A DNA stretch of 43,172 nucleotides from a virus. Below are positions 2,400-35,746 of the stretch, piece after piece. Location: IMG/VR virus record IMGVR_UViG_3300042260_000225, positions 1-43,172 of that record; one strand, written 5' to 3'. Position 1 is the stretch's first letter; every line of letters begins with the position of its first letter. The notes below the pieces were generated by a model. It was given only the letters and a program-made list of their open reading frames with translations, was not told the origin of the DNA and made no database searches. The translations under genes and the position numbers were made by a program.

Positions 2400-2514
2400 T
2401 ATATAAATAAAGTCGGGCGTAAAATGTTGAATTTGTAGTTACTTTCATAAAATTTTTACGCTTGATTTTTTCATAAATAAAAAGATATATAATATAACTA
2501 CAAATATATCAACA
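2400..2514 (+). promoter_or_regulatory. Leader of the homing endonuclease: two late-type boxes and start-occluding inverted repeat
   Basis: TATATAAATA is at 2400-2409 and GATATATAAT at 2484-2493. TGTTGA plus ATTTGTAGTTA (2425-2441) pairs with TAACTACAAAT (2495-2505) and TCAACA (2509-2514), with a 3-base bulge ATA at 2506-2508. The 3' arm ends 3 bases before the ATG at 2518. A transcript from the second box should start near 2500 and lack the 5' arm, while read-through from phoH would carry the full hairpin. GCGTAAAA (2417-2424) can also pair with TTTTACGC (2454-2461), giving pseudoknot topology with the long hairpin. T4 I-TevI is regulated by the same logic. Confidence 0.6.
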
Positions 2515-2517
2515 TTT

Positions 2518-3324
2518 ATGAAAAACTACAAATATTATTATGTATATCGCATAACAAATATACTCCATAATAAACATTATTATGGATATCGATCGTCAGA
2601 CATTGAACCAATATTAGATATTGGAGTAAAATATTTTTCTTCAAGCAAAGATAGAGATTTTATAAAAGATCAAATTCAAAATCCACATAATTATAAATAC
2701 GTAATTGTTTGCATTTTTGACAACAGAGAAGATGCACATAATCTAGAAATAAAGCTACATGCAAAATTTAATGTAGGTTCTAATCCATCTTTTTATAATA
2801 AAGCAAACGCAACTTCTTCTAAATTTTCAATAACTGGAACTACATTATCTGAAGAAACCAAGAAAAAAATGTCACAATCCCGTAAAGGAAGAATAGTTAC
2901 GCAAGAAACGCGTGATAAAATCTCTATTGCAAATGCTGGAACTAAACATGATGATGCTTTTAAAGATGCTATTAGAAAACGTATGTTAGGTAATACAAAT
3001 AATATCGGTAAAAACCACAGCGAAGCTTCTAAATTAAAAATGTCAAAATCTCTTAAAGGAAAGCAGCCGTGGAATAAAGGTTTAAATACGCCAGATGATG
3101 TTAAAATAAAACAATCATTATCTAAGTTAAACATGACACAGGAACAGAAAAATAAAATGCATTCTTGGAAAAAAGGGCGTCCGTGCCCAGACAATGTTAA
3201 ATTAAAATTATCTAAACCACAAACTAAAATACAATGTCCACATTGTAAAAAAATAGGTGGAATTTCAGCAATGAAACAAAATCATTTCGATAGATGTAAA
3301 TTAGTAGATAATCCAGAGAAATAA
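2518..3324 (+). CDS. GIY-YIG homing endonuclease with NUMOD3 repeats and a C-terminal zinc motif
   Basis: The 268-residue protein starts with a GIY-YIG nuclease domain (about 5-95). YVY is at 8-10 and YYGYR at 21-25, with the presumed catalytic arginine at 25 and glutamate near 77 in NLEIKLH. NUMOD3-type DNA-binding repeats follow (about 105-235), with the pattern S-x-E-x-x-x-K-x-S-x-x-x-K-G. A CPHC-x12-H-x4-C motif that could bind zinc is at the C-terminus. It is a free-standing mobile endonuclease, similar in layout to Seg or I-TevI enzymes, inserted between phoH and the RNase HII gene. Expression is probably kept late by the upstream hairpin. No intron boundary is evident. Confidence 0.9.
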   Translation: MKNYKYYYVYRITNILHNKHYYGYRSSDIEPILDIGVKYFSSSKDRDFIKDQIQNPHNYKYVIVCIFDNREDAHNLEIKLHAKFNVGSNPSFYNKANATSSKFSITGTTLSEETKKKMSQSRKGRIVTQETRDKISIANAGTKHDDAFKDAIRKRMLGNTNNIGKNHSEASKLKMSKSLKGKQPWNKGLNTPDDVKIKQSLSKLNMTQEQKNKMHSWKKGRPCPDNVKLKLSKPQTKIQCPHCKKIGGISAMKQNHFDRCKLVDNPEK

Positions 3325-3336
3325 AAACAAAGTAGA

Positions 3337-3381
3337 AGACATGTGTATAAGTATTATAACTTTAATAATATACACATGTCT
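3337..3381 (+). promoter_or_regulatory. Perfect 13-bp hairpin hiding the RNase HII start codon, promoter-like loop
   Basis: AGACATGTGTATA (3337-3349) is perfectly complementary to TATACACATGTCT (3369-3381), with a 19-base loop. The ATG at 3376 lies inside the 3' arm. The loop contains TATTATAA (3352-3359), which could be a -10 box giving a transcript starting near 3366 that lacks the 5' arm. There is no T-run, so this is not a simple terminator. An operator role of the palindromic repeat is an alternative. Confidence 0.65.
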
Positions 3382-4008
3382 GAAACTAGATACGTATTAC
3401 TCAAATCACACTACAACGAAGACCAATCAATCGTAGAAGTTGGCGTAGACGAAGTAGGTCGAGGATCTCTTGCAGGTCCAGTCACTATCGCGGCATGTAT
3501 TATGCCTAACAACTTTTCCCACCCACTTGTAAAAGATTCTAAATTGCTTTCTGAAAAACAAAAAGAAGAAGCCTATAAAATTGTAATGGCAAATGCTATT
3601 GCGTGGGACGTAGTTCATGTAGATGAATCTATTATCGAAAACATGAATATTCTTAATGCAACTTTGCATGGAATGGGTAAAGCTTTAGAAGGTGTTTACG
3701 CTAAAAAAGATTTTGATTTTGTTCTTGTTGATGGAGATCAATTCCATGGATTTGAAGGTAAAAACTTTGCAACTATCGTGGGCGGAGATAATAAATACAC
3801 TTCTATCGCAGCAGCTTCTATTATTGCAAAAGTACATCGTGATAATTGGATGAAAGAATGTGAAGAAGGCAAAATATACGGATGGGCTTCGAACAAAGGA
3901 TATGGCACAAAACAACACATCGATGCTATTAAAGAGCACGGATCTTGCAAATACCATAGACCTAGTTTCATTTCACATATCGTTACAACAACAACAGAAT
4001 TATTTTAA
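3376..4008 (+). CDS. rnhB: Ribonuclease HII
   Basis: The 210-residue protein has the full RNase HII signature: VGVDEVGRGSLAGPV with D25 and E26, VDGD with D119, and a conserved SIIAKVHRD with D156, giving the four acidic metal-binding residues. The C-terminal YGWASNKGYGT and HRPSF segments are also typical. It cleaves the RNA strand of RNA-DNA hybrids and excises misincorporated ribonucleotides. I chose ATG 3376 because the family start lies close to it. A GTG at 3343 would add 11 residues and lies in the 5' part of the hairpin. T4 uses an unrelated RNase H, so this enzyme looks acquired from bacteria. It is coupled to the next gene by TAATG. Confidence 0.95.
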   Translation: MSETRYVLLKSHYNEDQSIVEVGVDEVGRGSLAGPVTIAACIMPNNFSHPLVKDSKLLSEKQKEEAYKIVMANAIAWDVVHVDESIIENMNILNATLHGMGKALEGVYAKKDFDFVLVDGDQFHGFEGKNFATIVGGDNKYTSIAAASIIAKVHRDNWMKECEEGKIYGWASNKGYGTKQHIDAIKEHGSCKYHRPSFISHIVTTTTELF

Positions 4009-4352
4009 TGAGAAATTTATTTAATGGAATTATTTTATTAACGATCGGACAAGTGATTGTTTGGTTTCAAACCAATGGTCAGTTTGTGTGGCCATTCTTT
4101 AAAAGAAATCCATTAGTGATAGCTTTAATCGGCGGTAGCATAGTTTCATATACATTTATTCTAGGCACTAAAGAATTAGCTCAATATTACGAAGGAGCTC
4201 TTTGGCCTGGAAGATTTATTGGATTCAGTGTTGGTATGCTAGCTTTTTCTGCATTAACATATACTATGATGGACGAAGGAATCAACACGAAAACAGGAGT
4301 TTCATTGATATTAGCAGTAATTCTATTATGCGTCCAGTTGTTCTGGAAATAA
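4008..4352 (+). CDS. Four-helix integral membrane protein
   Basis: The 114-residue protein has four predicted membrane segments, about 3-23, 35-57, 68-90 and 95-113, joined by short loops. The start overlaps the RNase HII stop by one base (TAATG), so translation is coupled, and a terminator follows. Size and topology would allow a holin or a small membrane protein modifying the host, but no lysis gene is adjacent and I see no diagnostic motif. Some small phage membrane proteins resemble DMT/EamA half-repeats, which is another possibility. Confidence 0.75.
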   Translation: MRNLFNGIILLTIGQVIVWFQTNGQFVWPFFKRNPLVIALIGGSIVSYTFILGTKELAQYYEGALWPGRFIGFSVGMLAFSALTYTMMDEGINTKTGVSLILAVILLCVQLFWK

Positions 4353-4378
4353 ATGTTAATAACTTTTAAAAATAATTA

Positions 4379-4409
4379 AGCCCAAATTTTTTAGTTTGGG
4401 CTTTTTTTT
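4379..4409 (+). terminator. Rho-independent terminator, part of a repeated cassette
   Basis: AGCCCAAA (4379-4386) pairs with TTTGGGCT (4395-4402) and is followed by eight T. The flanks are shared with the terminator at 20969-20996: TTAATAACTTT with AAAATAATTA before, and TATATTTACAG with AATTAAAACAAA after. Confidence 0.88.
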
Positions 4410-4410
4410 G

Positions 4411-4419
4411 TATATTTAC
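4411..4419 (+). promoter_or_regulatory. Host-like promoter box TATATTTAC
   Basis: TATATTTAC lies 23 bases before the ATG at 4443, directly after a terminator. It fits the Bacteroidota primary-sigma -7 element TAnnTTTG except at the last positions. Similar boxes at 4667-4675 and 21000-21008 have nearly the same spacing to the next gene and the same A-rich leader (AATTAAAACAAA). No convincing -33 TTG was found. Confidence 0.5.
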
Positions 4420-4442
4420 AGAGTAATTAAAACAAACATAAT

Positions 4443-4631
4443 ATGAAATACGAAATAGTCCTATCATCCGATCAAATTCTTGAAATTAAAAAACAAAACA
4501 TTGAAGTAGAATATCTCGACAAGGTACCTACAACTTCCGGAGGTTTCTTTGTCTCTATCACAATCAAAGATTCTACAGACATTTTAAGTTTATTTTACGC
4601 AGGTAGTTATTACGCACTTAGTAAAAAATAA
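4443..4631 (+). CDS. Small protein of unknown function
   Basis: A 62-residue frame starting in an A-rich leader behind a host-like promoter box. It has alternating hydrophobic strands (KYEIVLSS, GGFFVSITI) and no recognisable motif. It is bounded upstream by a terminator and downstream by a second host-like promoter, so it may be a small early gene. Coding is supported by its placement and clean boundaries rather than by homology. Confidence 0.55.
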   Translation: MKYEIVLSSDQILEIKKQNIEVEYLDKVPTTSGGFFVSITIKDSTDILSLFYAGSYYALSKK

Positions 4632-4666
4632 TTGCTTAAATATTTTTTTATATCAAATCTTTTTAG

Positions 4667-4675
4667 TATATTTAC
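4667..4675 (+). promoter_or_regulatory. Host-like promoter box TATATTTAC
   Basis: TATATTTAC lies 25 bases before ATG 4701. It is followed by an A-rich leader (repeats of AAAAACA), like the boxes at 4411 and 21000. This probably drives the 133-residue gene and the UV endonuclease. Confidence 0.45.
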
Positions 4676-4700
4676 ATTATAATAATAAAAACAAAAACAA

Positions 4701-5102
4701 ATGAATATTCAAGAATTTAAATGCAATGGAATTGGAAACACTCAAGCAGCAAACAATGTTAAACCAATTATACAAACTGCAGTTTCAGTACTTAGATTAC
4801 GTAAATCTAATGACGAAATTATTGCTAGCTTTCCAGTAAACGATGACTATTATGTTGGTAGTAGATTTAGTAATGATGAAGCTGTCGCAACACGAGTTTG
4901 TTCAGGTTTAGTAAATTATGCAGAAAAACAACTGTATAATAAAAGCACTAATGAATACGCTTCTCCTTTAATTGTTGAAAGTTTTATCACAGCTTTGGTA
5001 GATTCTTTAAGTGGCACAGAAATGGATGCTATTATTTTAGAAGGTATGCGTGATTGCGCTTCAGCTGATCATTGGTATAAATTTGAAAAACAATGGGACT
5101 AA
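4701..5102 (+). CDS. Conserved-looking protein of unknown function
   Basis: The 133-residue protein has mixed alpha/beta character, a central FPVNDDYYVGSRFS segment and two cysteines in the second half. It starts after a host-like promoter and an A-rich leader without Shine-Dalgarno. It ends 16 bases before the UV endonuclease start, so they probably share a transcript and it may be expressed early. I do not recognise a family. Confidence 0.7.
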   Translation: MNIQEFKCNGIGNTQAANNVKPIIQTAVSVLRLRKSNDEIIASFPVNDDYYVGSRFSNDEAVATRVCSGLVNYAEKQLYNKSTNEYASPLIVESFITALVDSLSGTEMDAIILEGMRDCASADHWYKFEKQWD

Positions 5103-5118
5103 TCAACATATAATTCAT

Positions 5119-6045
5119 ATGAAAATAAATTTAGGATATTGTTGCATCAATATGACTTTGCAAAAAGAACGTAAAGTTACTATTGGTCGTGGTATGATTA
5201 AGAAAACATTCACAGAGCGTGGTATTAATTACGCTAGCGAATTGGCTTTGGCAAATGTCAAAGACATGGTAGAAATTATCAAATGGAATCATAAGAATGG
5301 AATTTCGCTTTATCGCATGAGTTCTGATATGTTTCCATGGTGTAGCGAATACGAACTCAAAGACTTGCCAGATTATGATAAGATTTGTAATATTCTTAAA
5401 GGTGCAGGTACTTTAGCAAGCCAATATGGTCAAAGATTGACATTTCATCCTGGTCCATTTTCAGTTTTGGCTTCTGCGAATCCAGATGTAGTTACTAAAA
5501 CCATTAGAGATTTAAATACGCATGGCGAGATCATGGATCTTATTGGTCTACCTCGTACACCTTACGCAGCTATTAATATACATGTTAATACTACAGCGCC
5601 AGATAAAGAATCTGCTATGCAAAGATTTTGTCAAAACTTTCAATTACTAAACGAGTCAGTTAAGTCTAGACTAGTTGTAGAAAACGATGACAAGGAATCA
5701 CAGTACACAGTCCAGGACTTATATGATTCTGTATACAGTAACATACACGTTCCAATTACATTTGACTACCACCATCACTGGTGCCATCCTGGTCAATTAG
5801 ATCAAGAAGCTTCTTTAAAATTAGCAGCAAAATCTTGGCCTAAAGATGTCAAACAACTTACGCACTTCTCTTCGTGTAAAACCATTCACGAAGATGCATC
5901 TCAAACTAATAAAAGGGCTCACGCAGATTACTTATATGATGTTATAGATTCATATGGTCTAGATATCGACGTTGAAGTAGAAGCTAAGGCTAAAGAATTG
6001 GCAGTATTTCAATATTTGAAACAAAATAAATTACAATTAGTATAA
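5119..6045 (+). CDS. uvsE: UV damage endonuclease (UvsE/UVDE family)
   Basis: The 308-residue protein matches UVDE, a TIM-barrel metal-dependent nuclease that nicks DNA 5' of cyclobutane dimers and 6-4 photoproducts. The N-terminus MKINLGYCCIN is typical. Metal-binding candidates occur in order: H in LTFHPGPF, H in INIHVNT, E in VVENDD, D and H in FDYHHHW, H in LTHFSSC, H in HADYL and E in VEVEAKAKE. The start at 5119 matches the family; an in-frame ATG at 5050 would overlap the previous gene. Such an enzyme would protect a large genome in sunlit water and suggests an environmental phage. Confidence 0.93.
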   Translation: MKINLGYCCINMTLQKERKVTIGRGMIKKTFTERGINYASELALANVKDMVEIIKWNHKNGISLYRMSSDMFPWCSEYELKDLPDYDKICNILKGAGTLASQYGQRLTFHPGPFSVLASANPDVVTKTIRDLNTHGEIMDLIGLPRTPYAAINIHVNTTAPDKESAMQRFCQNFQLLNESVKSRLVVENDDKESQYTVQDLYDSVYSNIHVPITFDYHHHWCHPGQLDQEASLKLAAKSWPKDVKQLTHFSSCKTIHEDASQTNKRAHADYLYDVIDSYGLDIDVEVEAKAKELAVFQYLKQNKLQLV

Positions 6046-6058
6046 AAAATAAAAAATT

Positions 6059-6304
6059 ATGTCAGAACTTAAATTAAAAGCATTAAAGGCACGTTATAGC
6101 GCGCAAAGATTAGAAGCTTTAGCTACTATTGAAGTTTATATGTCAAATTCTGTTGGAATCGGTGAACATCCACAGATCATTGACGAAATTGATAATTTGG
6201 TTAGAAAAGTAGATGAAGCCGAAGGTTTACTTAAAACGCTAGATTCTATTTTTAAAGTAGAAGATCAAATTGTCGAACAAGTCGATCAGACAGCAACCAA
6301 CTAA
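6059..6304 (+). CDS. Small acidic helical protein
   Basis: An 81-residue, almost entirely helical and acidic protein, with two predicted helices (about 1-30 and 37-75) broken by a VGIGEHPQI turn. It starts 13 bases after the UvsE stop with an A-rich spacer and is followed at once by a terminator, so it is the last gene of that unit. It may be a small binding partner or structural protein. No family recognised. Confidence 0.65.
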   Translation: MSELKLKALKARYSAQRLEALATIEVYMSNSVGIGEHPQIIDEIDNLVRKVDEAEGLLKTLDSIFKVEDQIVEQVDQTATN

Positions 6305-6310
6305 AATTAA

Positions 6311-6335
6311 AAGAGGACAAAAGTCCTCTTTTTTT
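6311..6335 (+). terminator. Rho-independent terminator
   Basis: AAGAGGAC (6311-6318) pairs with GTCCTCTT (6323-6330) over an AAAA loop, followed by a T-run to 6335. It separates the UvsE unit from the next late-type promoter. Confidence 0.88.
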
Positions 6336-6340
6336 ATTTA

Positions 6341-6350
6341 GATATATAAT
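6341..6350 (+). promoter_or_regulatory. Late-type promoter box GATATATAAT very close to the start codon
   Basis: GATATATAAT at 6341-6350 lies directly after a terminator and only 5 bases before ATG 6356. If it works like a T4 late box, with start about six bases downstream, the transcript would begin at or next to the A of the ATG and be leaderless. Confidence 0.5.
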
Positions 6351-6355
6351 TAAAT

Positions 6356-7048
6356 ATGAGCAAAGAACAAACATATAGCGATTATCCTACGGCTGCATCT
6401 AAAAATGCACAAAAAGCAATAGACTGGAAAGAAAAATACGGCAGAGATGTCGTAACAGCCGGTACTGCAGTTGGTTGGCAAAGAGCACACCAATTAGCTA
6501 AAGGCGAATCTTTATCTGAGGATGTTGTTTCTAGAATGGCGCAATTTAACAGACATAGAAAAAATTCAACAATCGCACCAGAATTTAAAGACGAACCTTG
6601 GAAAGATAGAGGCCACGTAGCTTGGCTTATTTGGGGTGGAACTGAAGGTGTTGATTGGGCTATGGAAACGATGGATAAAATAAAAGCAGCAGAAGAAGTA
6701 ACAGAATGGCTTAACACTTGCGAGTCATATCTATATTCTCTTGATTTTCTAATGGAAAATAAACTAAGAGATTTACAAATGCAATCTAGCGATTTATTAC
6801 AAAAACTTGGAGAAGCTAGACAAAAAACTGGAGATCTTAGAAAAAAAGTAATGGAGCTAAAGGGTAAAAAAGCAGATATGTGGAAAATTCAAATAGCTGA
6901 ATTAAATATTAAGAAAAACGATCTTAAAATTCAAATGCTATCTATTGCTGATATAGTAAACAAATTAAAAATGAGATATGCAACCGAAGGTCTAACATTT
7001 GGTGAATTTCTAATTATTAACGAATCTCTAAAAAAATTAGATATATAA
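6356..7048 (+). CDS. Phage protein with a conserved RHKKN-type head-associated domain and coiled coil
   Basis: The 230-residue protein has an N-terminal domain (about 8-105). Its ordered motifs are NAQKAIDWKEKYG, TAVGWQRAHQLAKGE, RMAQFNRHRKN, PWKDRGHVAWLIWGG and an ending GVDWA. From memory, this pattern occurs in phage virion proteins, sometimes next to or fused with prohead proteases and other head proteins, with unknown biochemical role. The C-terminal half (about 110-215) is a long charged coiled coil. The gene starts immediately after a late-type box, consistent with a virion protein made late. The function is inferred, not shown. Confidence 0.65.
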   Translation: MSKEQTYSDYPTAASKNAQKAIDWKEKYGRDVVTAGTAVGWQRAHQLAKGESLSEDVVSRMAQFNRHRKNSTIAPEFKDEPWKDRGHVAWLIWGGTEGVDWAMETMDKIKAAEEVTEWLNTCESYLYSLDFLMENKLRDLQMQSSDLLQKLGEARQKTGDLRKKVMELKGKKADMWKIQIAELNIKKNDLKIQMLSIADIVNKLKMRYATEGLTFGEFLIINESLKKLDI

Positions 7049-7049
7049 T
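7040..7049 (+). promoter_or_regulatory. Late-type promoter box GATATATAAT overlapping a stop codon
   Basis: GATATATAAT overlaps the stop codon (7046-7048) of the preceding gene and lies 31 bases before ATG 7081. It probably gives the acidic capsid-targeted protein its own late transcript. Confidence 0.5.
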
Positions 7050-7080
7050 CTTTAAAACATAATAAAATAATATCATTATC

Positions 7081-7788: not shown

Positions 7789-7814
7789 TATATAAGCGTA
7801 TCATCTTATATTTG

Positions 7815-7848
7815 AAAGGAGATCCCATAACGGATCTCCTTTCTTTTT
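7815..7848 (+). terminator. Rho-independent terminator
   Basis: AAAGGAGATCC (7815-7825) pairs perfectly with GGATCTCCTTT (7832-7842) over a 6-base loop, followed by CTTTTT. The 11-bp stem is strong. Confidence 0.9.
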
Positions 7849-7866
7849 GTAAACAAACCCTAAGAA

Positions 7867-7885
7867 ATTAGTATAAATAACTAAT
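7867..7885 (+). promoter_or_regulatory. Late-type box TATAAATA inside a short inverted repeat
   Basis: TATAAATA (7872-7879) equals the T4 late consensus. It is flanked by ATTAGT (7867-7872) and ACTAAT (7880-7885), a 6-bp inverted repeat. The ATG of the deaminase gene is 18 bases downstream of the box. Confidence 0.55.
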
Positions 7886-7897
7886 AAGATTTAAAAT

Positions 7898-8338: not shown

Positions 8339-8344
8339 TTAATT

Positions 8345-8354
8345 TATATAAATA
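8345..8354 (+). promoter_or_regulatory. Late-type box TATATAAATA close to the start
   Basis: TATATAAATA at 8345-8354 is 8 bases before ATG 8363. By T4 late spacing the transcript would have only about 3 leader bases, so it may be nearly leaderless. Confidence 0.5.
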
Positions 8355-8362
8355 ACTAGAGT

Positions 8363-8587: not shown

Positions 8588-8597
8588 TCAGACAATT

Positions 8598-10854: not shown

Positions 10855-10908
10855 AATAAGATATATATGTAATAAAGCCGCTTAGGCATTTAACACATAT
10901 AACTTATT
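10855..10908 (+). promoter_or_regulatory. Hairpin leader with a late-type box in its 5' arm, abutting the start codon
   Basis: The 5' arm 10855-10870 (AATAAG then ATATATATGT) pairs with the 3' arm 10893-10908 at 14 of 16 positions. The 3' arm ends directly before ATG 10909. GATATATATG (10860-10869) is the promoter-like box. A transcript starting about seven bases after it would lack the 5' arm. The loop holds a small GCC/GGC stem (10877-10887). Confidence 0.55.
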
Positions 10909-12606
10909 ATGGCAGATAATCAATTAGAAGAAATATTAAAAAATACACCTAAAAAGGACGTATTGTCAAAACCATCGATTGATGAGAACCCAGGTGAAAT
11001 TCCTTCAACCGATCCAACTGCAAAAACAGAAGTCAAAGAAGGTTCTAATCTTGAAGCAAAATCAAAAGCTATACCTATATATGATAAAATAGCAATGTCT
11101 ACATCATATACGACTAAAGATACTAAAAAAACAATTGATGGTAAAAATACTCAGCAATCTATTTTTAATAATTTTGCTCTATACAGATTCAATGGTACTC
11201 CATTTTTAGAAGCTAAAGAAGATTCTTACGATAAAATTGATTTTGGAGATGCAAGTATTTATGAAAATCCAACAGTATCTAAGATAATTGAAAAATGTAA
11301 TAGCGGATCTGATAAAATACAACAAAGTTATAAATACGAATGGTCTGACTTTGCTCTTTGTAAATATTTAGGTAAAATACCAAACAACCACATGATAACA
11401 TTACGTAGGTTTTCATTTCCTATTGGTGATGATATTATGAATATAAAAATGCCAAACAAAGAAGGCGATCTAGTTCCAGTACCACAACCAGATGTTGCCA
11501 GAGCTGTTACTTGGATGTCAGAGGTTACTGGTAACAAATTAGAAGAAATATTAAAATTTGATTATAATTATAAATGGAAACCAGTAGAAGCCGATGTGCA
11601 AGAGTTAGACTCGCAAACACAAGCAAGAAGAGGTAAGCTAGGATCATTTATAGATAATAGCACAATATTAAGTTCTTTAAATGCTACAGCTAATGGTATA
11701 GATGCAGCTGGACAAAGAAGAATAGAATCTCAAGGTTCTGGATTTGATGCATTTAAAACAACATATCCTAACCACGTATTTGGGCCATATAACTCCATTA
11801 GATCTATGATTATTAGAGATGGTGGTATGGAATTCAATCAGTCTTTTACTCTTAAATTTCAATATGAAATGAGAGCTATTGGTGATGCTAATCCTAAAGC
11901 TTTATTTTTAGATCAGTTTGCAAACATGTTAACTCTAACATATTCGAATGCGCCATTTTGGGGTGGAGAAGTTAGATATTTAAATACGGGTAAAGGATCT
12001 ATAGGAAGACCGTTGGGCGATATTAGTAAATTAAAAAATGGACAGTACGGTGATTTTTTTAAATCTGTGTTAGGTGATTTAAAAGGTTTAGCGGGTGGTG
12101 GAACCATGGCAGGCATTACAAGTCTATTGGGTAAAACAGCTAACAATTTATTAGGAGGAGCTTTGATGGATTTATTTAATACACCACAAGGTGGTCAAAT
12201 AGCTGCTGCTCTTTTAACGGGTGATCCAACAGGATCTTGGCACGTTACTATCGGAAATCCATTAAATCCTATTGCAGTTATTGGTAATCTAATTTGCGAA
12301 AAAACTGAAGTACAATTTCTAGGACCATTAGGACCTTTAGATTTTCCTGAGAATTTAGAAGTTTCGATTACTTTAAAACCAGGTAGACCAAGAGATAAAT
12401 CTGAAATAGAATCTATGTTCAATTCCGGTAAAGGAAGATTCTACATAACACCGCAAAGTGGTCCAGATATAAATAAAGAAAAGATAACAGGTTCTGCAGC
12501 TGGCGATGCAACACATACTTCAGCGCCTCATTTATATGCAACTAAATCTGGTGTACAAATGTCACCTACAGAATTTGAAGAATATAAAAAATTAGCTAAC
12601 GGATAA
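10909..12606 (+). CDS. Tail/baseplate structural protein
   Basis: The 565-residue protein has a disordered, charged N-terminus (about 1-55) and a beta-rich body with YRFNGTPFLE and MITLRRFSFPIGDD segments. A Gly/Ala/Leu-rich hydrophobic stretch is at about 385-430. The C-terminal domain (about 435-525) has DPTGSWHVTIGNPLNPI and GRPRDKSEIESMFNSGKGR. From memory, this C-terminal pattern recurs in structural proteins of large myoviruses. It overlaps the gp53-like gene by TAATG and opens the baseplate cluster behind a late-type hairpin promoter. It could be a tube/baseplate junction or hub-associated protein; the exact T4 counterpart is unclear. Confidence 0.7.
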   Translation: MADNQLEEILKNTPKKDVLSKPSIDENPGEIPSTDPTAKTEVKEGSNLEAKSKAIPIYDKIAMSTSYTTKDTKKTIDGKNTQQSIFNNFALYRFNGTPFLEAKEDSYDKIDFGDASIYENPTVSKIIEKCNSGSDKIQQSYKYEWSDFALCKYLGKIPNNHMITLRRFSFPIGDDIMNIKMPNKEGDLVPVPQPDVARAVTWMSEVTGNKLEEILKFDYNYKWKPVEADVQELDSQTQARRGKLGSFIDNSTILSSLNATANGIDAAGQRRIESQGSGFDAFKTTYPNHVFGPYNSIRSMIIRDGGMEFNQSFTLKFQYEMRAIGDANPKALFLDQFANMLTLTYSNAPFWGGEVRYLNTGKGSIGRPLGDISKLKNGQYGDFFKSVLGDLKGLAGGGTMAGITSLLGKTANNLLGGALMDLFNTPQGGQIAAALLTGDPTGSWHVTIGNPLNPIAVIGNLICEKTEVQFLGPLGPLDFPENLEVSITLKPGRPRDKSEIESMFNSGKGRFYITPQSGPDINKEKITGSAAGDATHTSAPHLYATKSGVQMSPTEFEEYKKLANG

Positions 12607-14748: not shown

Positions 14749-16017
14749 ATGGCATTTTTTATACAAAACGAAGCATTTAGAAAAGCAGGACTTTTTAGAA
14801 AGGGTACTCAGCTTAAGGCATTACCATATCAAGACCCTACTTATTTAGGCTTCTTGTTGCTATTTCAATGGAATGATGTTAAAGTTACTACAAATACAAA
14901 CAGTACTTCAACACCCGATGCTATTATATCTTCACCGCTGTTTGATCCATCTGGAGCCGAAGCTTATTTAAAAAGATTAGTTCAAGCTAATGATAAATTT
15001 AAACCTAAATTAGATGCGTTAATTGCTTTTAAAAAAGGTTTAGAAAATATTAATCTAAATATGCCGTGGTATTGGCAGTCTATTGCTGGACTTGATAAAT
15101 TACAAGCTTATGATCCAAACGAGCCATATATTGGCAAAGACGGAAATGAATTGGCAATAGGTTGTTTAGAATCTATTAACTTAGCAATAACAGGTTTGAT
15201 GAGAAATTACAGAAAAGCTGTTTTTGACGAAGAAACATGGTCTTACGTTATTCCACCTAATCTAAGAAAGTTTTCAGTTAAAATTTATGTCTCTGATATA
15301 AGACCGCTTTTTAACGAAGCTGTAGATGCAAAAACTCAACCATCTAATACACAATTAGGAAACGTAAGCAATTTTAATATAGATCCTAATATAGAAGATC
15401 AACAAACACCTACAAAAGATGTTGATATTGACTTGGTCGGTTCTAATAAAAAACCGTATCTTGCATTTCAATTAACTAATTGCGAATGGAATATGCAAAC
15501 GGGAGTTTCTGCTTTTGCAGAACTTAAAAACGATGCTCCAGAAATGGCGTCTCAGGCAATTGCATTTAATTATGAACGATTAACTTCTGTTGAAATGATC
15601 GCAATGAATGGTATTATTGATGATTCTATTATAGCTTCAGTCGGTGCTCAAGCACCTGCTGCTCCTCCGGTATCAAAAAAGTCAAGTGTATTTGAAAAGG
15701 CTAAAGAAAGAGCAAATAGAGATTTAAAAAATTTAGCTGAAAAGAAAAAACAAGAAGCTATTACTACAGCGTCTTCTTTGGTTAAAGATAAAACAGGAAT
15801 TCCTTTTACAATGGATGGCATGAAACCTAAATTAGAAACTGAAGGCATTTACATGAATCTAGTTAATAAAATAGACAACGCAACGAATATACAACGATTA
15901 AATACTCGAGACATTGCCGAATCACTTTTAGGTAATGTTTATTTCGGTGCTGGACAATCTGTTCAAAATGTTTTAGATGACGGTTTGCGCAAAGCCTTAG
16001 GAAATGTTTACAAATAA
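14749..16017 (+). CDS. Baseplate/tail structural protein, possible tube-baseplate junction
   Basis: The 422-residue protein has an N-terminal domain (about 1-240) with YQDPTYLGFLLLF, an ESINLAITGLMRNYRKA helix and the strand region VKIYVSDIRPLFN. A second beta region contains YLAFQLTNCEWNMQTG (about 240-290). A basic coiled-coil-like helix follows (about 312-345), then a C-terminal helical tail. Its position between the hub and spike genes, and its beta-strand pattern, suggest a tube-initiator or hub-associated role like T4 gp48 or gp54. That equivalence is inferred from context only. Confidence 0.65.
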   Translation: MAFFIQNEAFRKAGLFRKGTQLKALPYQDPTYLGFLLLFQWNDVKVTTNTNSTSTPDAIISSPLFDPSGAEAYLKRLVQANDKFKPKLDALIAFKKGLENINLNMPWYWQSIAGLDKLQAYDPNEPYIGKDGNELAIGCLESINLAITGLMRNYRKAVFDEETWSYVIPPNLRKFSVKIYVSDIRPLFNEAVDAKTQPSNTQLGNVSNFNIDPNIEDQQTPTKDVDIDLVGSNKKPYLAFQLTNCEWNMQTGVSAFAELKNDAPEMASQAIAFNYERLTSVEMIAMNGIIDDSIIASVGAQAPAAPPVSKKSSVFEKAKERANRDLKNLAEKKKQEAITTASSLVKDKTGIPFTMDGMKPKLETEGIYMNLVNKIDNATNIQRLNTRDIAESLLGNVYFGAGQSVQNVLDDGLRKALGNVYK

Positions 16018-21845: not shown

Positions 21846-21858
21846 ATAATTTGCAATG

Positions 21859-21892
21859 ATATATATAGTGAACTAATAACATTCATTATATA
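21859..21892 (+). promoter_or_regulatory. Hairpin leader of the amidoligase gene with late-type box in its 5' arm
   Basis: GATATATATA at 21859-21868 overlaps the 5' arm TATATAGTGAA (21862-21872). This arm pairs with TTCATTATATA (21882-21892) with one G-U pair and a 9-base loop. The 3' arm ends one base before ATG 21894. A transcript from the box would start near 21875, in the loop, and lack the 5' arm. A transcript reading through from 21000 would fold. Confidence 0.5.
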
Positions 21893-21893
21893 A

Positions 21894-23195
21894 ATGATAA
21901 ACCTTAAAGACTCAGACATTTTATCTAAAGCTCTAGTCGGAGTAGAATTTGAGTTCTATTCTAATACAAGCATTGAAGATACAGCCAAAGAAGTTGGCAA
22001 ATTACTTGGCAAAAAAATACGTGTAGAAAAGAAGGCTCATAGTGAATTTCAACCAACGCAGGATGAATTCAAAATGGAACCAGATATGTCTGGTGGAGCT
22101 GGATTGATTGAATTAGTTACAGGAGCAGTACCTTATTCTGCTGGTAGACTGATGATTATTAAAATGTGTGATTGGATCAAAAAGAACGGTTACACTACTG
22201 ATAGATCTTCTATTCATTTAAATTTAAGTTTTAATCCAGAATTATCTGGTAATAAGAACTTACTTTCTAAAATGAATCCATTAAAATTCATCTTAGATTT
22301 TAATGAAGATAAAGTTTGGAAAGCATTTCCAAATAGACAAGATTCAACATACGCAAAATCAATAAAATTTGTTATTCCAAGAATTGAAACATATTCTTAC
22401 AATGGAGAGCACATCAGCTCAAACAATTTTATATTCCCTAGAACAAAATATTACGGAGTTAACTTTGAAAAACTTCAAAAGAACTATCTTGAATTTAGAT
22501 ATTTAGGTGGTGAAAATTGGCATGAAAAATCTGCTAAGATTTTAAATCTTATGGATTATTTCTTAGTTCAATTGTGGACAACTGCTAGTGATAGCCAAAC
22601 ATCATTCACTGAGTTAAATAAAATCGAACTTAAAAAGATTTTAGCTGACAATAAAAAGGTAATTGATTTAAGAGTAGATTGGAGAAATATCGAAAAGAAC
22701 TTTCCAAAATGTAAATTCACAGTCGATATGTCAAATGATCCAACTGTTTTAGATTTATATTGGCCACAAATCAAAGAAAGAGTTGCTTTGTTATTTACTC
22801 AAGGTCAAATGGATAAAGGAAATATCAATTACGATTCAGATGCTGGTAGAATTCAAGTAGAGAACGGTCACTTACCATATTGCTTTCAATTAGAAGCTTA
22901 TGAATTTATAGGATGTTCACTGCAAGGTGAATTTACATATTGTGATTTCTTCACATGTGATATACAATCATCTGATATTAAAAATTGCAACATTTATTAT
23001 AACACACAAGTTAACAATTCAAAGGTAGGTTCTTGCCAAACAGCATGGAATGCAGTGCTTAAAAATTGTTATGTATATGGATCTGATACTATATTTAAAG
23101 GATCGATGCAAGGCGGAATCTTTAGAGAAGGTAAATACGATGCCAAGTTTGCTAAATTTGACGATGTTGAAATAATAAAATCTTACAAAATATAA
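21894..23195 (+). CDS. Predicted amidoligase (glutamine-synthetase-like fold) fused to a pentapeptide/beta-helix tail
   Basis: The 433-residue protein matches the Amidoligase_2 pattern in its N-terminal part (about 10-235). GVEFEF is at 16-21 with two acidic residues for metal/ATP. LIELVTGAVPYSAG has E74, SIHLNLSF has H109, and YLEFRYLGG has E201 and R203. These enzymes ligate carboxyl and amino groups with ATP, in peptide synthesis or protein tagging. The C-terminal part (about 335-428) has regularly spaced residues (GCSLQG, YCDFFTCDI, SDIKNCNIY, FKGSMQGGIF), as in pentapeptide or right-handed beta-helix folds. The neighbour upstream carries a capsid-targeting-like tag. Substrate unknown. 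An inactive structural derivative is possible. Confidence 0.72.
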   Translation: MINLKDSDILSKALVGVEFEFYSNTSIEDTAKEVGKLLGKKIRVEKKAHSEFQPTQDEFKMEPDMSGGAGLIELVTGAVPYSAGRLMIIKMCDWIKKNGYTTDRSSIHLNLSFNPELSGNKNLLSKMNPLKFILDFNEDKVWKAFPNRQDSTYAKSIKFVIPRIETYSYNGEHISSNNFIFPRTKYYGVNFEKLQKNYLEFRYLGGENWHEKSAKILNLMDYFLVQLWTTASDSQTSFTELNKIELKKILADNKKVIDLRVDWRNIEKNFPKCKFTVDMSNDPTVLDLYWPQIKERVALLFTQGQMDKGNINYDSDAGRIQVENGHLPYCFQLEAYEFIGCSLQGEFTYCDFFTCDIQSSDIKNCNIYYNTQVNNSKVGSCQTAWNAVLKNCYVYGSDTIFKGSMQGGIFREGKYDAKFAKFDDVEIIKSYKI

Positions 23196-29351: not shown

Positions 29352-29373
29352 TTTTATTTTAGATTCCGGTTCA

Positions 29374-29427
29374 ATTTTAAAGATGATATATAATACAATA
29401 ATACGTGATAAAGCATCACATTAAAAT
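29374..29427 (+). promoter_or_regulatory. Late-type promoter within nested inverted repeats
   Basis: ATTTTAA (29374-29380) can pair with TTAAAAT (29421-29427), enclosing GATATATAAT (29385-29394) and a small hairpin GTGAT/ATCAC (29405-29409 with 29415-29419). The ATG of the next gene is 20 bases beyond. The outer stem is A/T only and weak; the promoter box is strong. Confidence 0.5.
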
Positions 29428-29447
29428 AACAAACAAACTGTTCAAAA

Positions 29448-30008: not shown

Positions 30009-30041
30009 TTGGATTACAAAACATAAAAGAAATTTCGCTAA

Positions 30042-32012
30042 ATGGCAACACCATTAATTAGAATACCACAGGAGCAAGGAGGAACGCTATATGCCTTTTC
30101 TTCAGCAGCAAGAGATTTAACAAGATCTTACTATAATCCAGATTTAAACTTTGAATTTTCAAAGTTTGCCTTGGTTAAAGTACCAGTTGTGACTGCGCCT
30201 TCACAGGGTTCTACTAATAACTACATACAATTTAATAAATTATTCGATGCATCTGGTTCAGCGTATGATGACACGACCTTAAACGGTAATGCAAATATTC
30301 ATTTCGCACAAACTTTTCAAAACTATGCGTTAAACCTTGAACAGTTGGTTTTAAACGATGACGATTTTGATTCTACTATTTTTAGTTCAGATGCTGAAAA
30401 GATTTTCTTTAAATACTTAAATAGAATTGGAGCATTCCAAGCTAGAAGCGCAACATCTCAAGAAGCTGTTGGTTCTTTAAGTAGAATGGTCGAGTTAGAT
30501 GATTCGTCACTAACAGGTACTGAATATGAAAGAGTTATTAAGTATTTAGGAAATATAGATGTTTCTAATGATAAAAATTATAAAGGTGATGTGTATAATG
30601 AAATTTTCATTAATGTACCATCTGCTGTTGGTTATACACCGAATGTTTTATTAAAATCAGCAACATATAACACAAATGCATTACAGTATGTACCTGGAAG
30701 TTTTATCGAAGGTCGTGCTGGACAAACTCATCCAGATGTTAATCTTAATTTAGAAAGTATCACCGATACCGTAGATTCAGAAATCATAATTGATCCTAAT
30801 GAATCTGGTATTGTTGAAAATGCTTTAGGTATTGATTTTACATCATCTTCATACGCTAAAATAGTAAACGATGCGGAAATGAGTTCTCTTTTTGATTATT
30901 CTAAAAGAGGTGGAGATTTCACATTTAACGCTATTCTAGTATATTACGATTTATATTCTAAATCAACACCGACGAATAGAGCTACAAACCTATACGGTGT
31001 TTTAATTTTAGATAACTTTAAAGAAGATCCAAATGGATCAGGTTGGTTTATTCCAACTCAAACAAAATACAAACCTAACGATATTACTGGTTTAAATGGT
31101 AATGCGTTCTCTTTGAAATTGAATGTTAAATTCAACAGTTCAATGGATAACGTTGGTGTTGAAAATAACATTAATGATTTTAGTACATTTGGAATGGACA
31201 TCTTTTTAGATACTGTTTCTGCACTTAGTAATGCTACTAAATTATTAAAAGATGCCGATACAAAATATACAGAAATGTTTAACAGAGTTGCAGACATTGA
31301 AAGCTTGATCTTAACATCAGCTGATATTGCAGACGTTAAAAATAGAATTGCTGCAGTTGAAAAAGACGTAGCTAATGCTAAATTAAATATGTCTCAGTCT
31401 AATACTTTACTATCATTGATTCAATCTACCAATCTTAAGATTAATCAAATGTTAGACGGTACGGTACCAACTTCAGTTCAATATAATATAGACGTAATTA
31501 AACCAGGGCCTGGTATAGGAATTGATAAATCTACTAGCAATATTATTAAAATTATTAATACAGTAGACGGTTATGAAATTTGTGAACCTTATTTATTTGA
31601 TGTTACACCAGTTTCATTTTTAAATTGGATTGTTAGTTCTAAAATAGAAGCTACTGCTCCATTTGATCCAACGCTTGCTAATAATTATGCTATATGGTCA
31701 AGATTAAAACCTTATACTAATAGAATTGCGATCGACGTTAATTCTTCAAATGCGGCTGTTAATGATGTCAATATATACATAGACGACACATCAACAACAT
31801 GGAAGAAAGGTCAAGTTGTTAAAATTAAATTTAACAACACTATTGACATTGCTGGTTTTAACGTTAAAATTTGGAGTTTAAAATCTTCTACTTTAGGTTG
31901 GACTTTAATTTCAACACTAAGCAGTTCAAGCTTTATAACGACAAAACCATATGTTGAATTAATATGCACTGATGCTGTTAATAAACAATTTGAACTAGAT
32001 ATATTAAGATAA
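30042..32012 (+). CDS. Large virion protein with coiled-coil region
   Basis: The 656-residue protein is beta-rich in its first 400 residues, with DVYNEIFINVPSAVGYTPNV and an acidic low-complexity region. A coiled coil (about 395-480) contains IESLILTSADIADVKNRIAA, and a C-terminal beta domain (about 500-656) resembles carbohydrate-binding or fibre-base folds. It lies between the small fibre protein and a 1226-residue structural gene with 1-base spacing, so it is probably part of the distal baseplate or a fibre-attachment protein. Function inferred from context. Confidence 0.65.
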   Translation: MATPLIRIPQEQGGTLYAFSSAARDLTRSYYNPDLNFEFSKFALVKVPVVTAPSQGSTNNYIQFNKLFDASGSAYDDTTLNGNANIHFAQTFQNYALNLEQLVLNDDDFDSTIFSSDAEKIFFKYLNRIGAFQARSATSQEAVGSLSRMVELDDSSLTGTEYERVIKYLGNIDVSNDKNYKGDVYNEIFINVPSAVGYTPNVLLKSATYNTNALQYVPGSFIEGRAGQTHPDVNLNLESITDTVDSEIIIDPNESGIVENALGIDFTSSSYAKIVNDAEMSSLFDYSKRGGDFTFNAILVYYDLYSKSTPTNRATNLYGVLILDNFKEDPNGSGWFIPTQTKYKPNDITGLNGNAFSLKLNVKFNSSMDNVGVENNINDFSTFGMDIFLDTVSALSNATKLLKDADTKYTEMFNRVADIESLILTSADIADVKNRIAAVEKDVANAKLNMSQSNTLLSLIQSTNLKINQMLDGTVPTSVQYNIDVIKPGPGIGIDKSTSNIIKIINTVDGYEICEPYLFDVTPVSFLNWIVSSKIEATAPFDPTLANNYAIWSRLKPYTNRIAIDVNSSNAAVNDVNIYIDDTSTTWKKGQVVKIKFNNTIDIAGFNVKIWSLKSSTLGWTLISTLSSSSFITTKPYVELICTDAVNKQFELDILR

Positions 32013-32013
32013 T

Positions 32014-35000
32014 ATGAGCGCTAATAATTCAATCTCTCAACTACTTGAACAATTTATTGAACTTTACAATAACTCTTTAAGTACGTTTGAAAAAACTAAC
32101 GAAGCTATAACAACAGACAAAGAAACTGTTGCTATAGATCTTTATGATCCTAAAAAAGGTTCGGTTAAAACGGTTCAGATTCCATCGTTTGGTTTCTTGA
32201 AAAGAGAAATTGAAAGATTAAATGGTAATCTAGATGCTTTAGCTGGAACTACTAGCACGACATCTAATGTTAAATTAAAAGATGGTTCTTTTAGAAGAAT
32301 TATTACTTCTAAATTACAAGGACCAGCCCCTAGCATTACAAATTTAGCGGCACCAACTGCATTCAAAACCAAAGCTAATGAATTTTTTGAAGACTTTTTA
32401 AATCCTTTATTAACAGTTAGTTTAAATGTAAGTGGTCAAATACCAACAACTACAGAAAAAGCATACATTGAAAGATATGTGTTTGATAGTAATGATGTAA
32501 ATAGTATTCAAGCTTTTAATTCTGTATACAAAGGATCTAACAATATTGATTACGATACTTTCGTAAAAGACATTGTACAAAATAAATATGTTTATAGAAA
32601 AGATGCTTCAGATATTGATATGCCATCAAGATCTATGGCATATTACGGTAACTTTGACGTTTTAGGTATAGACACTGCAGAGAAGACACTGGTTGTCGAT
32701 GGTGCTACTCAAACCGTAAACGTTAGATTATTTACGTTAAACCAATTAACGTACTCAGATTCATCTAAAACATTAAAAAATACAGAGACTCTTAAAGTTG
32801 GAGATTTCTTAGTAGTTAATTCAAATCAATATTCTACTAGATATAAAATCACGGCATTAAATACCGATACTTTACAAGCTGAATTAGATTTAATTGAAGG
32901 TTCAGAACCTATTAGAATTGGAGCTGGTGAATTAAAAATATACAAAGATGTTGACGTCGCAGTTAATATCGACGTTAATGTTGCTTTTAATGAATATCAA
33001 GTTGTATTCGTTAAAGCTATTGATTCAGTATCTAAAATATTGTCAGAGAGCTTTTCACCTGGTGTTGCATTTTATTCTAACGAATTACAAATTGCAACAG
33101 AGAATGGTACTGTTATGAACTTAGCTGATTATTACAGATCAGAAGTTGCTGACTTTGGTCAATTTATTAAAAGTTTTAAAATTGATTCTATTCCACCAGC
33201 ATCTGTTGGTTTAGTACCAAATGCACCAGCGTTAGATACTGCAAATTTCAAAGTAGTTCAAATCAACAAGCACTTAACTGATAATGATTCGACTAATAAG
33301 ATCAAACAACTTAAAAACGATAAACTTGCATCGGAGCAGAATCTAAAGAAATTAGATGACGCTATTTCTAAAAAGAAATCTGCAATCAATACCGTAAAAT
33401 ATAAGTCTACTGTAGAAAGAGATAGAGACACTAACGAATTAAGTACACTAGCTCAAAAGAGAACATCTGAGTCTGCTCTGTATTCTTCTGTTGTTAGTGA
33501 AATTAAATCTATTGCTAATTCTAATAATTTATCAAACGTTGCCCCTAAATATAAACTTAGAGGTTTTTGGTCTATTCCAGACCCTAAGAAGTCAAATGAT
33601 ATTGTAGAACAGGCTATAGTTCAATTTAAAATAAGATACCGTTACGTTTCTTCTAATGGTAAAACTTCACAAATTGATCAAATACCATTTCAAGATGGTA
33701 ACACAACAAAAACTGCAGCCTTTTCAAATTGGATTGAAGTAGATGGTCCTATCAGAAAAAGAATTAAAGATGCTAATGGTAAATTTTACTGGGGCACTGA
33801 TAGCGAAGAAGATGCTAATGCAGTTAATTTTAATTCATTAGACATTGCTATTCAACCTGGCGAAAAAGTAGAGATTATGGTTAAATCTCTTTCAGAAGCT
33901 GGATTCCCTGCTAATTCTATTGAATCTGATTGGTCTGATATAATGACTTATGAATTTCCAGAAGGTGAATTCACAGGTGATACTATATTAGAAGCTATCA
34001 ATGAAAATTCATTAGAGACTGTAAGAATTCAAATCACACAAGATTTAACAACAGCTGGTTTATATACACACTTAGAAGATTCATTTACTGCTAATTCTAA
34101 ATACTTTTCACACAATGCAACTTCGATTGCATCTGGTTTCTTAACGACTGAGCAAAATCCTGTTAGTTTGTTTGACAAATTAGTAGAGATGCAAACTCAA
34201 ATTGAGAAATTAAGAGCTCAAATCACTGGAACTCTTGGAGAATTAGTTGTTTATATAGAAGACGAATCAGGAGCACAAACTACTGTTTCTAATCATACAA
34301 CTGTTAAATTATTTGCAGGCTATTATGTTGATGAAATTACAAATCAAATCGATAGAAAGGGTGCAATTGTAACTAAAAGTTTCAAACTTAAATTATCAAA
34401 CAGTAAAGCTACAGATTTAGAATTAGTATCTAGATTAGTAGGAGATAGAACAAAACCAGCTTATGGTTCTGGAGCATCTACAGTTTTAGGTGTAGCTCCA
34501 GGAACTATCGACCCAACTGTATCGAGCGATACTTATTATGCAAATGAAGGTAGATATGATTTAGTTCCATTACAATATCAAAACATCAGTTCTAATTTAA
34601 CCGGTGTTGATTATATGAATGTTGCTCCATACCAATCTGGCCAATTAAGAGGTCAATATATGTATTCTAGAGCTAAGAATTTAGCTAATGATGCAGATCT
34701 TTATTCTATGACTCCACCAGATACTGATTACGGTGTTACATCATGGACTGTTGGAAATGGTGCAGATGATTTTGAGTATGGTATCAATTATAAATTTGGA
34801 ACAAATCCAGCATTAATTGGATCAGGTGATTCTAGATATTGGAATTTTGCAAACGCAACTGATGCACCTTATGCTGCTAATAATGGAACAGATGATTTTA
34901 TTTGGTCTGGAGATTATACAAATGGTTTGCCTAATACTACAGCTATCAGTACAGGTTTAAATCAAGTTAGTAAAACTGATTATGATAATGGATTGTATTT

Positions 35001-35694
35001 ACACAAAGATCACCCATTATTAAATACAGGTAGTGCTTTAACGCCATTAAATATTGCAGAAATTGGTTTAGTTTCTATGTCTAAAAATGCACCTAGAAGA
35101 GCTAATATGACAGACGGATCATTTCAAAATCCATATAAAAGAGCACATTGGCAAATGAAGTCAAATACTTCAACACCAATCGATGTATACAGAAGTTTAA
35201 AAATGTCATTCAATGCTGAAGATCAATTTTTATTAGGAGGTCATTCATGCGGAGCTTACTTATTCTTAAGTCCTATTGAAACTACAAGTTTAACAGTAGA
35301 CGCTGATAATAAATTTGGTAAGAAATCAATTGCACAAGGAGCTACTAATGCTGTTTCAGTTGATTTAATATTTCAATATAGAATGACTGATTATTTTGGA
35401 GTTTCTTCAGCCAATAACGCTGGAAGAGTTGGTGGAATTGCATCTACAAACTTAACAAACCTAACATATTCTAAAAAGATAGGATTAGATATTTTAAAAG
35501 GTGAAAACGACGTATTCTCCTTTGATATTGAAGTTTACGCTAAATATAAACCAGAAGGATCTTCAGTAGCTAACGTAACTAAAGAAATGATAGACACGTA
35601 TAGAGTACCTAGATGGCATGGTGGTAGAGAATTCGTAGATTCTGAAAATGATTTTTCAACACCAGGCTCTATAACTTCACTAAGATATATGTAA
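32014..35694 (+). CDS. Very large tail/baseplate structural protein
   Basis: The 1226-residue protein has a helical N-terminus (about 1-90) and mixed beta domains (to about 410). A strong lysine/glutamate-rich coiled coil follows (about 430-510), then a beta-rich region (about 520-640), including YRYVSSNGKTSQIDQIPFQD, that resembles a fibronectin-like domain. The long C-terminal half is rich in Asn, Thr, Gly and Tyr and fibre-like (to 1226). It is co-directional and separated by 1 base from the upstream gene. A hairpin/promoter leader follows it, so it ends a unit. It may be a peripheral baseplate protein (gp10/gp7 class) or long-fibre base. Confidence 0.65.
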   Translation: MSANNSISQLLEQFIELYNNSLSTFEKTNEAITTDKETVAIDLYDPKKGSVKTVQIPSFGFLKREIERLNGNLDALAGTTSTTSNVKLKDGSFRRIITSKLQGPAPSITNLAAPTAFKTKANEFFEDFLNPLLTVSLNVSGQIPTTTEKAYIERYVFDSNDVNSIQAFNSVYKGSNNIDYDTFVKDIVQNKYVYRKDASDIDMPSRSMAYYGNFDVLGIDTAEKTLVVDGATQTVNVRLFTLNQLTYSDSSKTLKNTETLKVGDFLVVNSNQYSTRYKITALNTDTLQAELDLIEGSEPIRIGAGELKIYKDVDVAVNIDVNVAFNEYQVVFVKAIDSVSKILSESFSPGVAFYSNELQIATENGTVMNLADYYRSEVADFGQFIKSFKIDSIPPASVGLVPNAPALDTANFKVVQINKHLTDNDSTNKIKQLKNDKLASEQNLKKLDDAISKKKSAINTVKYKSTVERDRDTNELSTLAQKRTSESALYSSVVSEIKSIANSNNLSNVAPKYKLRGFWSIPDPKKSNDIVEQAIVQFKIRYRYVSSNGKTSQIDQIPFQDGNTTKTAAFSNWIEVDGPIRKRIKDANGKFYWGTDSEEDANAVNFNSLDIAIQPGEKVEIMVKSLSEAGFPANSIESDWSDIMTYEFPEGEFTGDTILEAINENSLETVRIQITQDLTTAGLYTHLEDSFTANSKYFSHNATSIASGFLTTEQNPVSLFDKLVEMQTQIEKLRAQITGTLGELVVYIEDESGAQTTVSNHTTVKLFAGYYVDEITNQIDRKGAIVTKSFKLKLSNSKATDLELVSRLVGDRTKPAYGSGASTVLGVAPGTIDPTVSSDTYYANEGRYDLVPLQYQNISSNLTGVDYMNVAPYQSGQLRGQYMYSRAKNLANDADLYSMTPPDTDYGVTSWTVGNGADDFEYGINYKFGTNPALIGSGDSRYWNFANATDAPYAANNGTDDFIWSGDYTNGLPNTTAISTGLNQVSKTDYDNGLYLHKDHPLLNTGSALTPLNIAEIGLVSMSKNAPRRANMTDGSFQNPYKRAHWQMKSNTSTPIDVYRSLKMSFNAEDQFLLGGHSCGAYLFLSPIETTSLTVDADNKFGKKSIAQGATNAVSVDLIFQYRMTDYFGVSSANNAGRVGGIASTNLTNLTYSKKIGLDILKGENDVFSFDIEVYAKYKPEGSSVANVTKEMIDTYRVPRWHGGREFVDSENDFSTPGSITSLRYM

Positions 35695-35697
35695 TTC

Positions 35698-35746
35698 ATT
35701 AGTCCTTCTATTTAAGATATATAAAGTAATAAATAGAAGGACTAAT
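35698..35746 (+). promoter_or_regulatory. Perfect 16-bp hairpin with late-type promoter in its loop
   Basis: ATTAGTCCTTCTATTT (35698-35713) is the exact reverse complement of AAATAGAAGGACTAAT (35731-35746). The 17-base loop contains GATATATAAA (35716-35725). The 3' arm ends 2 bases before ATG 35749. There is no T-run after it, so it is not a standard terminator. A transcript starting about seven bases after the box would begin in the 3' arm and could not fold. A read-through transcript from the gene ending at 35694 would fold tightly. This is the clearest example of the leader architecture in this window. Confidence 0.8.

Follow-up and report, generated by a model that had tools for sequence, protein, structure and literature searches.

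Results

Start-Codon Hairpins in the Window

The window, that is, the whole 43,172-base stretch of DNA that was analyzed (an IMG/VR virus record), has nearly all of its genes on one strand. The same is true of its relatives, contigs that reach 256 kb and have 306 of 322 called genes co-stranded, and since the genes are almost all co-directional, read-through into the genes described below is structurally possible. Proteins of this clade match those of large Bacteroidota phages (Flavobacterium MaF61, Tenacibaculum pT24 and PTm1, Chryseobacterium MA9V, and the Lak phages) and of huge metagenomic phages; the hosts of this virus family are probably Bacteroidota bacteria. A search for a cultured close relative with expression data found none. 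Genes were called with a simple script, and some starts are possibly off, while all folding energies are predictions at 37 °C.

A first-pass annotation had singled out five leaders, here A to E, in which an inverted repeat would place its 3' arm on or next to the start codon and carry a TATA-type late box in its loop or 5' arm. The features concerned are as follows.

2409-2469, + strand: terminator-like hairpin (stem plus T-run) whose loop contains the 5' arm of A
2425-2514, + strand: long-range pairing A; 5' arm 2425-2441 (TGTTGAATTTGTAGTTA), 3' arm 2495-2514 (TAACTACAAATATATCAACA); z = 3.2
2484-2491, + strand: box GATATATA of A, between the arms
2518-3324, + strand: homing endonuclease gene, GIY-YIG/NUMOD3 (NUMOD3, E = 4e-13; phrog_314 homing endonuclease, E = 2e-31)
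3338-3380, + strand: hairpin B; 5' arm 3338-3349 (GACATGTGTATA), 3' arm 3369-3380 (TATACACATGTC); z = 6.4
3344-3351, + strand: GTATAA-type box at B
3376-4008, + strand: RNase HII gene (PF01351, E = 1e-33)
10855-10908, + strand: hairpin C, AATAAG/CTTATT and TATATGT/ACATATA around a GCC..GGC stem; ATG at 10909
10860-10867, + strand: box GATATATA in the 5' arm of C
21858-21865, + strand: box GATATATA overlapping the 5' arm of D
21862-21892, + strand: hairpin D, TATATAGTGAA (21862-21872) / TTCATTATATA (21882-21892); ATG at 21894 of an amidoligase-like gene
~35697-35745, + strand: hairpin E; 5' arm ~35698-35713 (ATTAGTCCTTCTATTT), 3' arm ~35730-35745 (AATAGAAGGACTAAT); z = 7.0
35716-35723, + strand: box GATATATA in the loop of E
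35749-40509, + strand: gene E, encoding a 1586-aa protein of the virion block

The mechanical ORF list starts the RNase HII gene at GTG 3343, which falls in the 5' arm of B; we rejected this candidate, the true start being ATG 3376, so that the start codon (3376-3378) lies within the 3' arm. At E, the 3' arm bears the Shine-Dalgarno (SD)-like motif AGAAGGA and is followed by ATG 35749.

For each leader, the energy required to open positions -12 to +4 was compared with that of 300 dinucleotide shuffles. The values of E (start 35749; 18.7 kcal, z = 7.0) and B (start 3376; 19.2 kcal, z = 6.4) are reached by 0/300 shuffles each, those of A (start 2518; 9.3 kcal, z = 3.2) and D (start 21894; 8.8 kcal, z = 3.0) by 2/300 and 3/300. 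C (start 10909) is borderline, with an opening energy of 9.2 kcal that 15/300 shuffles reach (z = 2.0). Four of the five loci put forward as strong thus exceed shuffled sequence. The three proposed as weaker examples fail: native opening energy is reached by 300/300 shuffles at F (start 7898; 0.0 kcal), 51/300 at G (16055; 6.8 kcal) and 138/300 at H (29448; 2.7 kcal), in no case revealing occlusion above chance. The remaining window leaders that were tested are open. As for the box, GATATATA lies within or overlaps the stem at A (2484), C (10860), D (21858) and E (35716), as had been anticipated, but the B leader is without it and has the GTATAA-type box instead.

A Late-Type Box and the Predicted RNA Start

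The box behaves as a genuine promoter-like motif of late type, which bears out the earlier suggestion. GATATATA is strand specific, by 30 to 1 in the 256-kb relative (G001) and by 7 to 0 in the window, and upstream of genes in the former it occurs 18 times against 0.5 expected. Among the genes that it precedes are those for tail sheath, tail tube, head maturation protease and endolysin/lysozyme. A gp55-like late sigma factor is encoded in G002 (phrog_234, E = 4e-8), with copies 61-73% identical in G001, G004, G006 and G007. Since GATATATA is strand specific, stands at virion genes and occurs in a clade with a gp55-like sigma, we infer that it is best read as the clade's counterpart of the T4 late box. 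The gp55-like factor would be the one that reads it, and the GTATAA box at B is of unproven class. A second motif, TATATTTAC, lies within 100 nt of 27 genes in the 256-kb relative, mostly 30-35 nt before the ATG; these include genes for PRPP synthetase, nicotinamide phosphoribosyl transferase, RNA ligase and deoxyribonucleotidase. A scan of the window for host-type TTTG/TAnnTTTG promoters gave nothing above chance. Besides the gp55-like factor, G001 encodes a second, ECF-like sigma factor (14827-15027). In Flavobacterium phage MaF61 (L153-L156) we noted an upstream motif GATAAATA, often in the form GATAAATATTTATC, possibly a late box of another variant.

Between the G of GATATATA and the ATG, distances peak sharply at 12 nt (18 genes of unrelated families), with one gene at 13 and none at 14; after a gap from 16 to 24, a broad group begins at 25. 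In the simplest reading, the RNA would start 12 nt after the G (G+12), which falls on the A of the ATG in GATATATA-N4-ATG genes. These 18 genes are found in G001, G002, G004, G006, G007, G008, G009 and G012, and their families include lysozyme, head protease and proteins sharing an N-terminal tag. They probably represent a class of leaderless late mRNAs that start exactly on the AUG. Many late-box proteins of G001 and its relatives open with a common tag like MKxxxxFEQFLNE, which we take to resemble the capsid-targeting sequences of T4 internal head proteins. A lysozyme gene of G001, with a 10-bp stem over its leaderless ATG, was considered as an analogue of T4 gene e and set aside as a single case, having no orthologue in 23 other records. 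In four other records (L272, L274, L293 and L321), the RNase HII gene is preceded by TGTATAAN-N4-ATG, a GTATAA box in the same 12-nt geometry, which suggests leaderless RNA there as well.

With the start at G+12, the 5' arms of E, A and B, and most of those of C and D, lie upstream of the RNA, in line with the expectation that transcription begins beyond this arm. The predicted opening cost drops accordingly at E (19.3 to 3.3 kcal), B (19.5 to 5.0 kcal) and A (9.8 to 0.9 kcal). The corresponding drops at C (8.5 to 2.2 kcal) and D (8.7 to 2.1 kcal) rest on short AT-rich stems.

Stems Rebuilt from Unrelated Sequence

Relatives of the N-terminal part of gene E occur among huge Bacteroidota phages, Lak and Tenacibaculum phages included. 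In relatives of the window, the hairpin is either identical or rebuilt. Within a set of 54 distinct leaders drawn from 78 loci, 31 fold at or below -14 kcal (1.4 expected) and 14 at or below -18 kcal (0.07 expected), and among the significant leaders there are 18 groups of 5' arms with unrelated sequences. Starting the RNA at G+12 lowers the median opening cost of the 54 from 9.7 to 3.3 kcal. The 5' arm adjoins the box in some phages and lies some 20 nt upstream in others; because of these differing offsets, column-wise covariation is unsuitable and unrelated arms were counted instead. The 3' arm retains an SD-like AAAGAGG or AGAAGGA across relatives and, being partly conserved in its own right, makes the pairing partly one-sided.

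The RNase HII family gives a similar picture, with 27 of 52 distinct leaders at or below -14 kcal (0.9 expected), 19 at or below -18 kcal (0.08 expected) and eight unrelated groups of 5' arms among the significant ones. The stem is missing in the L300 and L254 groups, as it is at E in the L212 group and L223, which indicates that the hairpin is not essential. Since orthologues share history, such counts overstate independence, and it is safer to go by how many unrelated arms there are. The C family shows a moderate excess (13 leaders at or below -8 kcal against 2.3 expected) and the D family a weak one, the window copy having z = 3.0; relatives of both have shorter stems in which the box itself forms part of the 5' arm. 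A further gene encodes a coiled-coil protein of 127-134 aa that has a hydrophobic segment at its C-terminus. In most relatives found, the box of this gene stands in the loop of a long stem, and between G001 and G002 a G-C pair in this stem is swapped for C-G. The protein is holin-like in its architecture alone, matching no family.

The same layout, built of unrelated stems and rebuilt repeatedly (18 arms at E, eight at RNase HII), argues for selection at the RNA level, as the first-pass annotation had held. As to compensatory changes in relatives, which it had proposed as a check, unrelated 5' arms keep the pairing and a G-C pair becomes C-G; the E and RNase HII stems are absent from some phages. 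These observations also bear on a DNA-level explanation, in which the repeats are palindromes around a promoter that serve as operator for a dimeric regulator. The repeats do flank the promoter, and I-TevI is known to act as an autorepressor, too, at the late promoter of its gene (PMC2988022). However, stems are unrelated both between loci and between relatives at one locus, leaving no common site sequence, and the 5' arm changes its position with respect to the box without losing its pairing with the start region. A change of stem sequence and offset with retention of pairing points to selection for pairing rather than for a bound DNA sequence, and we regard an operator as very improbable. 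Counts of G-U against A-C mismatches, tried as proof of RNA pairing, were dropped because of a bias of the energy model and contradictory families.

Late-box genes make no general use of SD sequences; SD-like leaders occur only in the E family, and few of them are strong. As a separate observation, 10 of the 17 records searched encode ribosomal protein bS21 (G001, at 141831-141971, and nine others). In G001 and G005 this gene lies near phoH/rnhB, while E leaders bear the SD-like AAAGAGG.

Homing Endonuclease Genes and Terminator-Like Stems

The endonuclease gene of the window is a cassette inserted between phoH and rnhB, and the arms of A are retained in L018 and L020. The terminator-like stem at 2409-2469 differs in sequence among the window, L018 and L020 with its pairing and loop segment retained, and is missing wherever the endonuclease is missing. 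Other homing endonuclease genes have comparable leaders. In front of a GIY-YIG/NUMOD3 endonuclease gene in G009, a near-perfect stem has GATATATA in its loop and a 3' arm that ends on the ATG; a GIY-YIG endonuclease gene in L098 (at 3344) has a near-perfect stem with a box in its loop; and start-occluding stems precede an HNH-type endonuclease gene in G002 and a third endonuclease gene in G006, the opening cost for an HNH-type endonuclease being 21 kcal.

Could the inverted repeats be intrinsic terminators with a nested promoter, halting transcription from upstream and not translation? A terminator-like stem precedes A, a T-run is present at one copy of the coiled-coil gene, and in relatives the dCMP deaminase gene has the leader AAAAAGTCTATATATAATA...TATATAGACTTTTTTTATG. 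However, the 3' side of the stem has no T-run at B, C, D, E and the G009 endonuclease, nor in the majority of the E (54) and RNase HII (52) leaders, and the stems finish at or on the ATG. Termination is therefore an unlikely account of these repeats. In the dCMP deaminase leaders (L039, L033, L018 and others), the terminator-like hairpin encloses a TATA box directly before the start; it is absent from the window's own clade.

Hairpins Are Confined to Particular Genes

The proposal that such hairpins are used genome-wide is not supported by folding against shuffles. Across 893 starts in six clade genomes, starts are mostly less structured than their shuffles, with no general excess of structured ones (opening cost of at least 6 kcal at 29 starts, 27.5 expected). 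There is only a small strong tail, six starts with an opening cost of at least 12 kcal against 0.1 expected and 0 in 412 coding-ATG controls, which makes start-codon hairpins gene specific. The majority of late boxes in the clade have no hairpin. About one in nine late-box leaders has a strong stem (~11 of 97 significant at p <= 0.01), and the significant ones are concentrated in a few gene families. In the distant huge phages LR756500, LR745206, LR756501 and MaF61, late-type boxes exist and hairpins are at or near chance, so that the hairpin appears to be a feature of the clade.

AT-rich leaders that hold a self-complementary box might fold by chance, which is the case at F, G and H and may explain part of the folding at C and D. 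It does not account for the others. A duplex across the box at or below -16 kcal occurs in 10 of the 97 GATATATA leaders, against 0.54 in shuffles that leave the box intact and 0.69 after an exchange of 5' arms among these loci, and box leaders from outside the hairpin families yield no such stems. For E, B and the endonucleases chance folding is refuted by the shuffle tests, and as a general explanation we consider it next to negligible.

Discussion

Stems in excess of shuffles, their repeated replacement, a strand-specific box, a gp55-like sigma factor and the G+12 start together constitute the computed support for a control at the start codon. We think it likely that these leaders are start-gated translation switches of the T4 e/soc/I-TevI type. 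RNA from an upstream promoter would carry both arms and fold, hiding the start codon together with the preceding ~12 nt, and would be poorly translated. RNA from the gene's own late (or GTATAA-type) promoter would have its 5' end in the loop or in the 3' arm, ~12 nt downstream of the first box base, and would stay open for want of the 5' arm. Such a switch presumes three things that we infer: read-through RNA extending into these genes, a block of initiation by the folded leader in the host, and late-only expression. In Flavobacterium johnsoniae, translation initiation depends on how structured the start codon is (PMC6847099). Late-only expression would best suit the endonucleases and the lysis-like gene, and a temporal reading of the switch is plausible.

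The same RNA gate may serve another purpose, isolating a gene's output from that of co-transcribed upstream genes at all times and thus controlling dose. Gene E lies within a late-type block, 54 nt behind another virion-block gene, so that read-through there would mostly be late RNA itself; its gate may therefore separate E output from read-through rather than from early RNA, setting an independent dose instead of late-only expression. That hairpins are confined to certain genes agrees with this purpose, but the endonucleases and the lysis-like gene are of the kinds that T4 controls by timing (PMC3014915, PMC2988022). We rate dose control a real contender, if somewhat short of an even chance.

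Returning to the start-gated switch, its broadest form would be that, in this clade of one-strand phages with a gp55-like sigma, translation of selected genes is decided by the start of transcription and not by whether mRNA is present, with the late promoter both opening gated genes and making leaderless mRNAs, and with the gate rebuilt many times from unrelated sequence at the same genes. On this general statement our judgment is evenly balanced. A control scheme of a few T4-type genes would thereby extend to large phages of a distant lineage, with hosts that make little use of SD pairing, and how selected genes stay silent where nearly all genes share one strand becomes testable. Rebuilding from unrelated sequence at one gene is strong evolutionary evidence for function, and the hairpin families provide a ready set of natural variants.

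Several known systems invite comparison. In Bacillus subtilis, a conserved leader hairpin hides the ribosome site of sigG and lowers translation of this stage-specific gene (PMC5942855); there, it is the gene's own transcript that is damped, and the abstract of that study describes no nested promoter. Large phages encoding bS21 (PMC9723584) are like those of our clade in size, in their predicted Bacteroidetes hosts and in the ribosomal protein gene, and they show late-stage expression of structural genes in lake metatranscriptomes (PMC9723584); promoters and leader hairpins are not treated there, and this is a likeness rather than an established identity of clades.

The closest parallels come from T4. 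Read-through RNA of e and soc is folded and their late-promoter RNA open (PMC3014915), and likewise in the I-TevI family (PMC2988022). The homing endonuclease genes I-TevI, I-TevII, I-TevIII, segB and Aeh1 mobE have start-occluding stems (PMC2988022). The likeness extends to the late box between the arms, seen at A and in G009, the genes here being of GIY-YIG/NUMOD3 and HNH type; in contrast to that group, they are free-standing, in distant phages, and the window copy adds a terminator-like stem with the 5' arm in its loop. The leaders of T4 e (lysozyme), soc and 49 also sequester the start region in read-through RNA, and late promoters at the 5' strand of e give late RNA without that strand, a pattern found across related T4-type phages (PMC3014915). 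The predicted stems and the placement of promoters match, and the homing endonucleases share the arrangement, which supports the analogy drawn with e, soc and I-TevI. Our phages differ from these T4 cases in their probable Bacteroidota host with little SD use, in a box that reads GATATATA or GTATAA where T4 has TATAAATA, in the genes concerned (RNase HII and the ~1586-aa virion-block protein), and in stems, known here from sequence prediction, that have repeatedly been swapped for unrelated ones. The mechanism itself is already known; measured against the literature searched, the new elements are the lineage in which it would operate, the genes and the box involved, and the repeated rebuilding of the stems.
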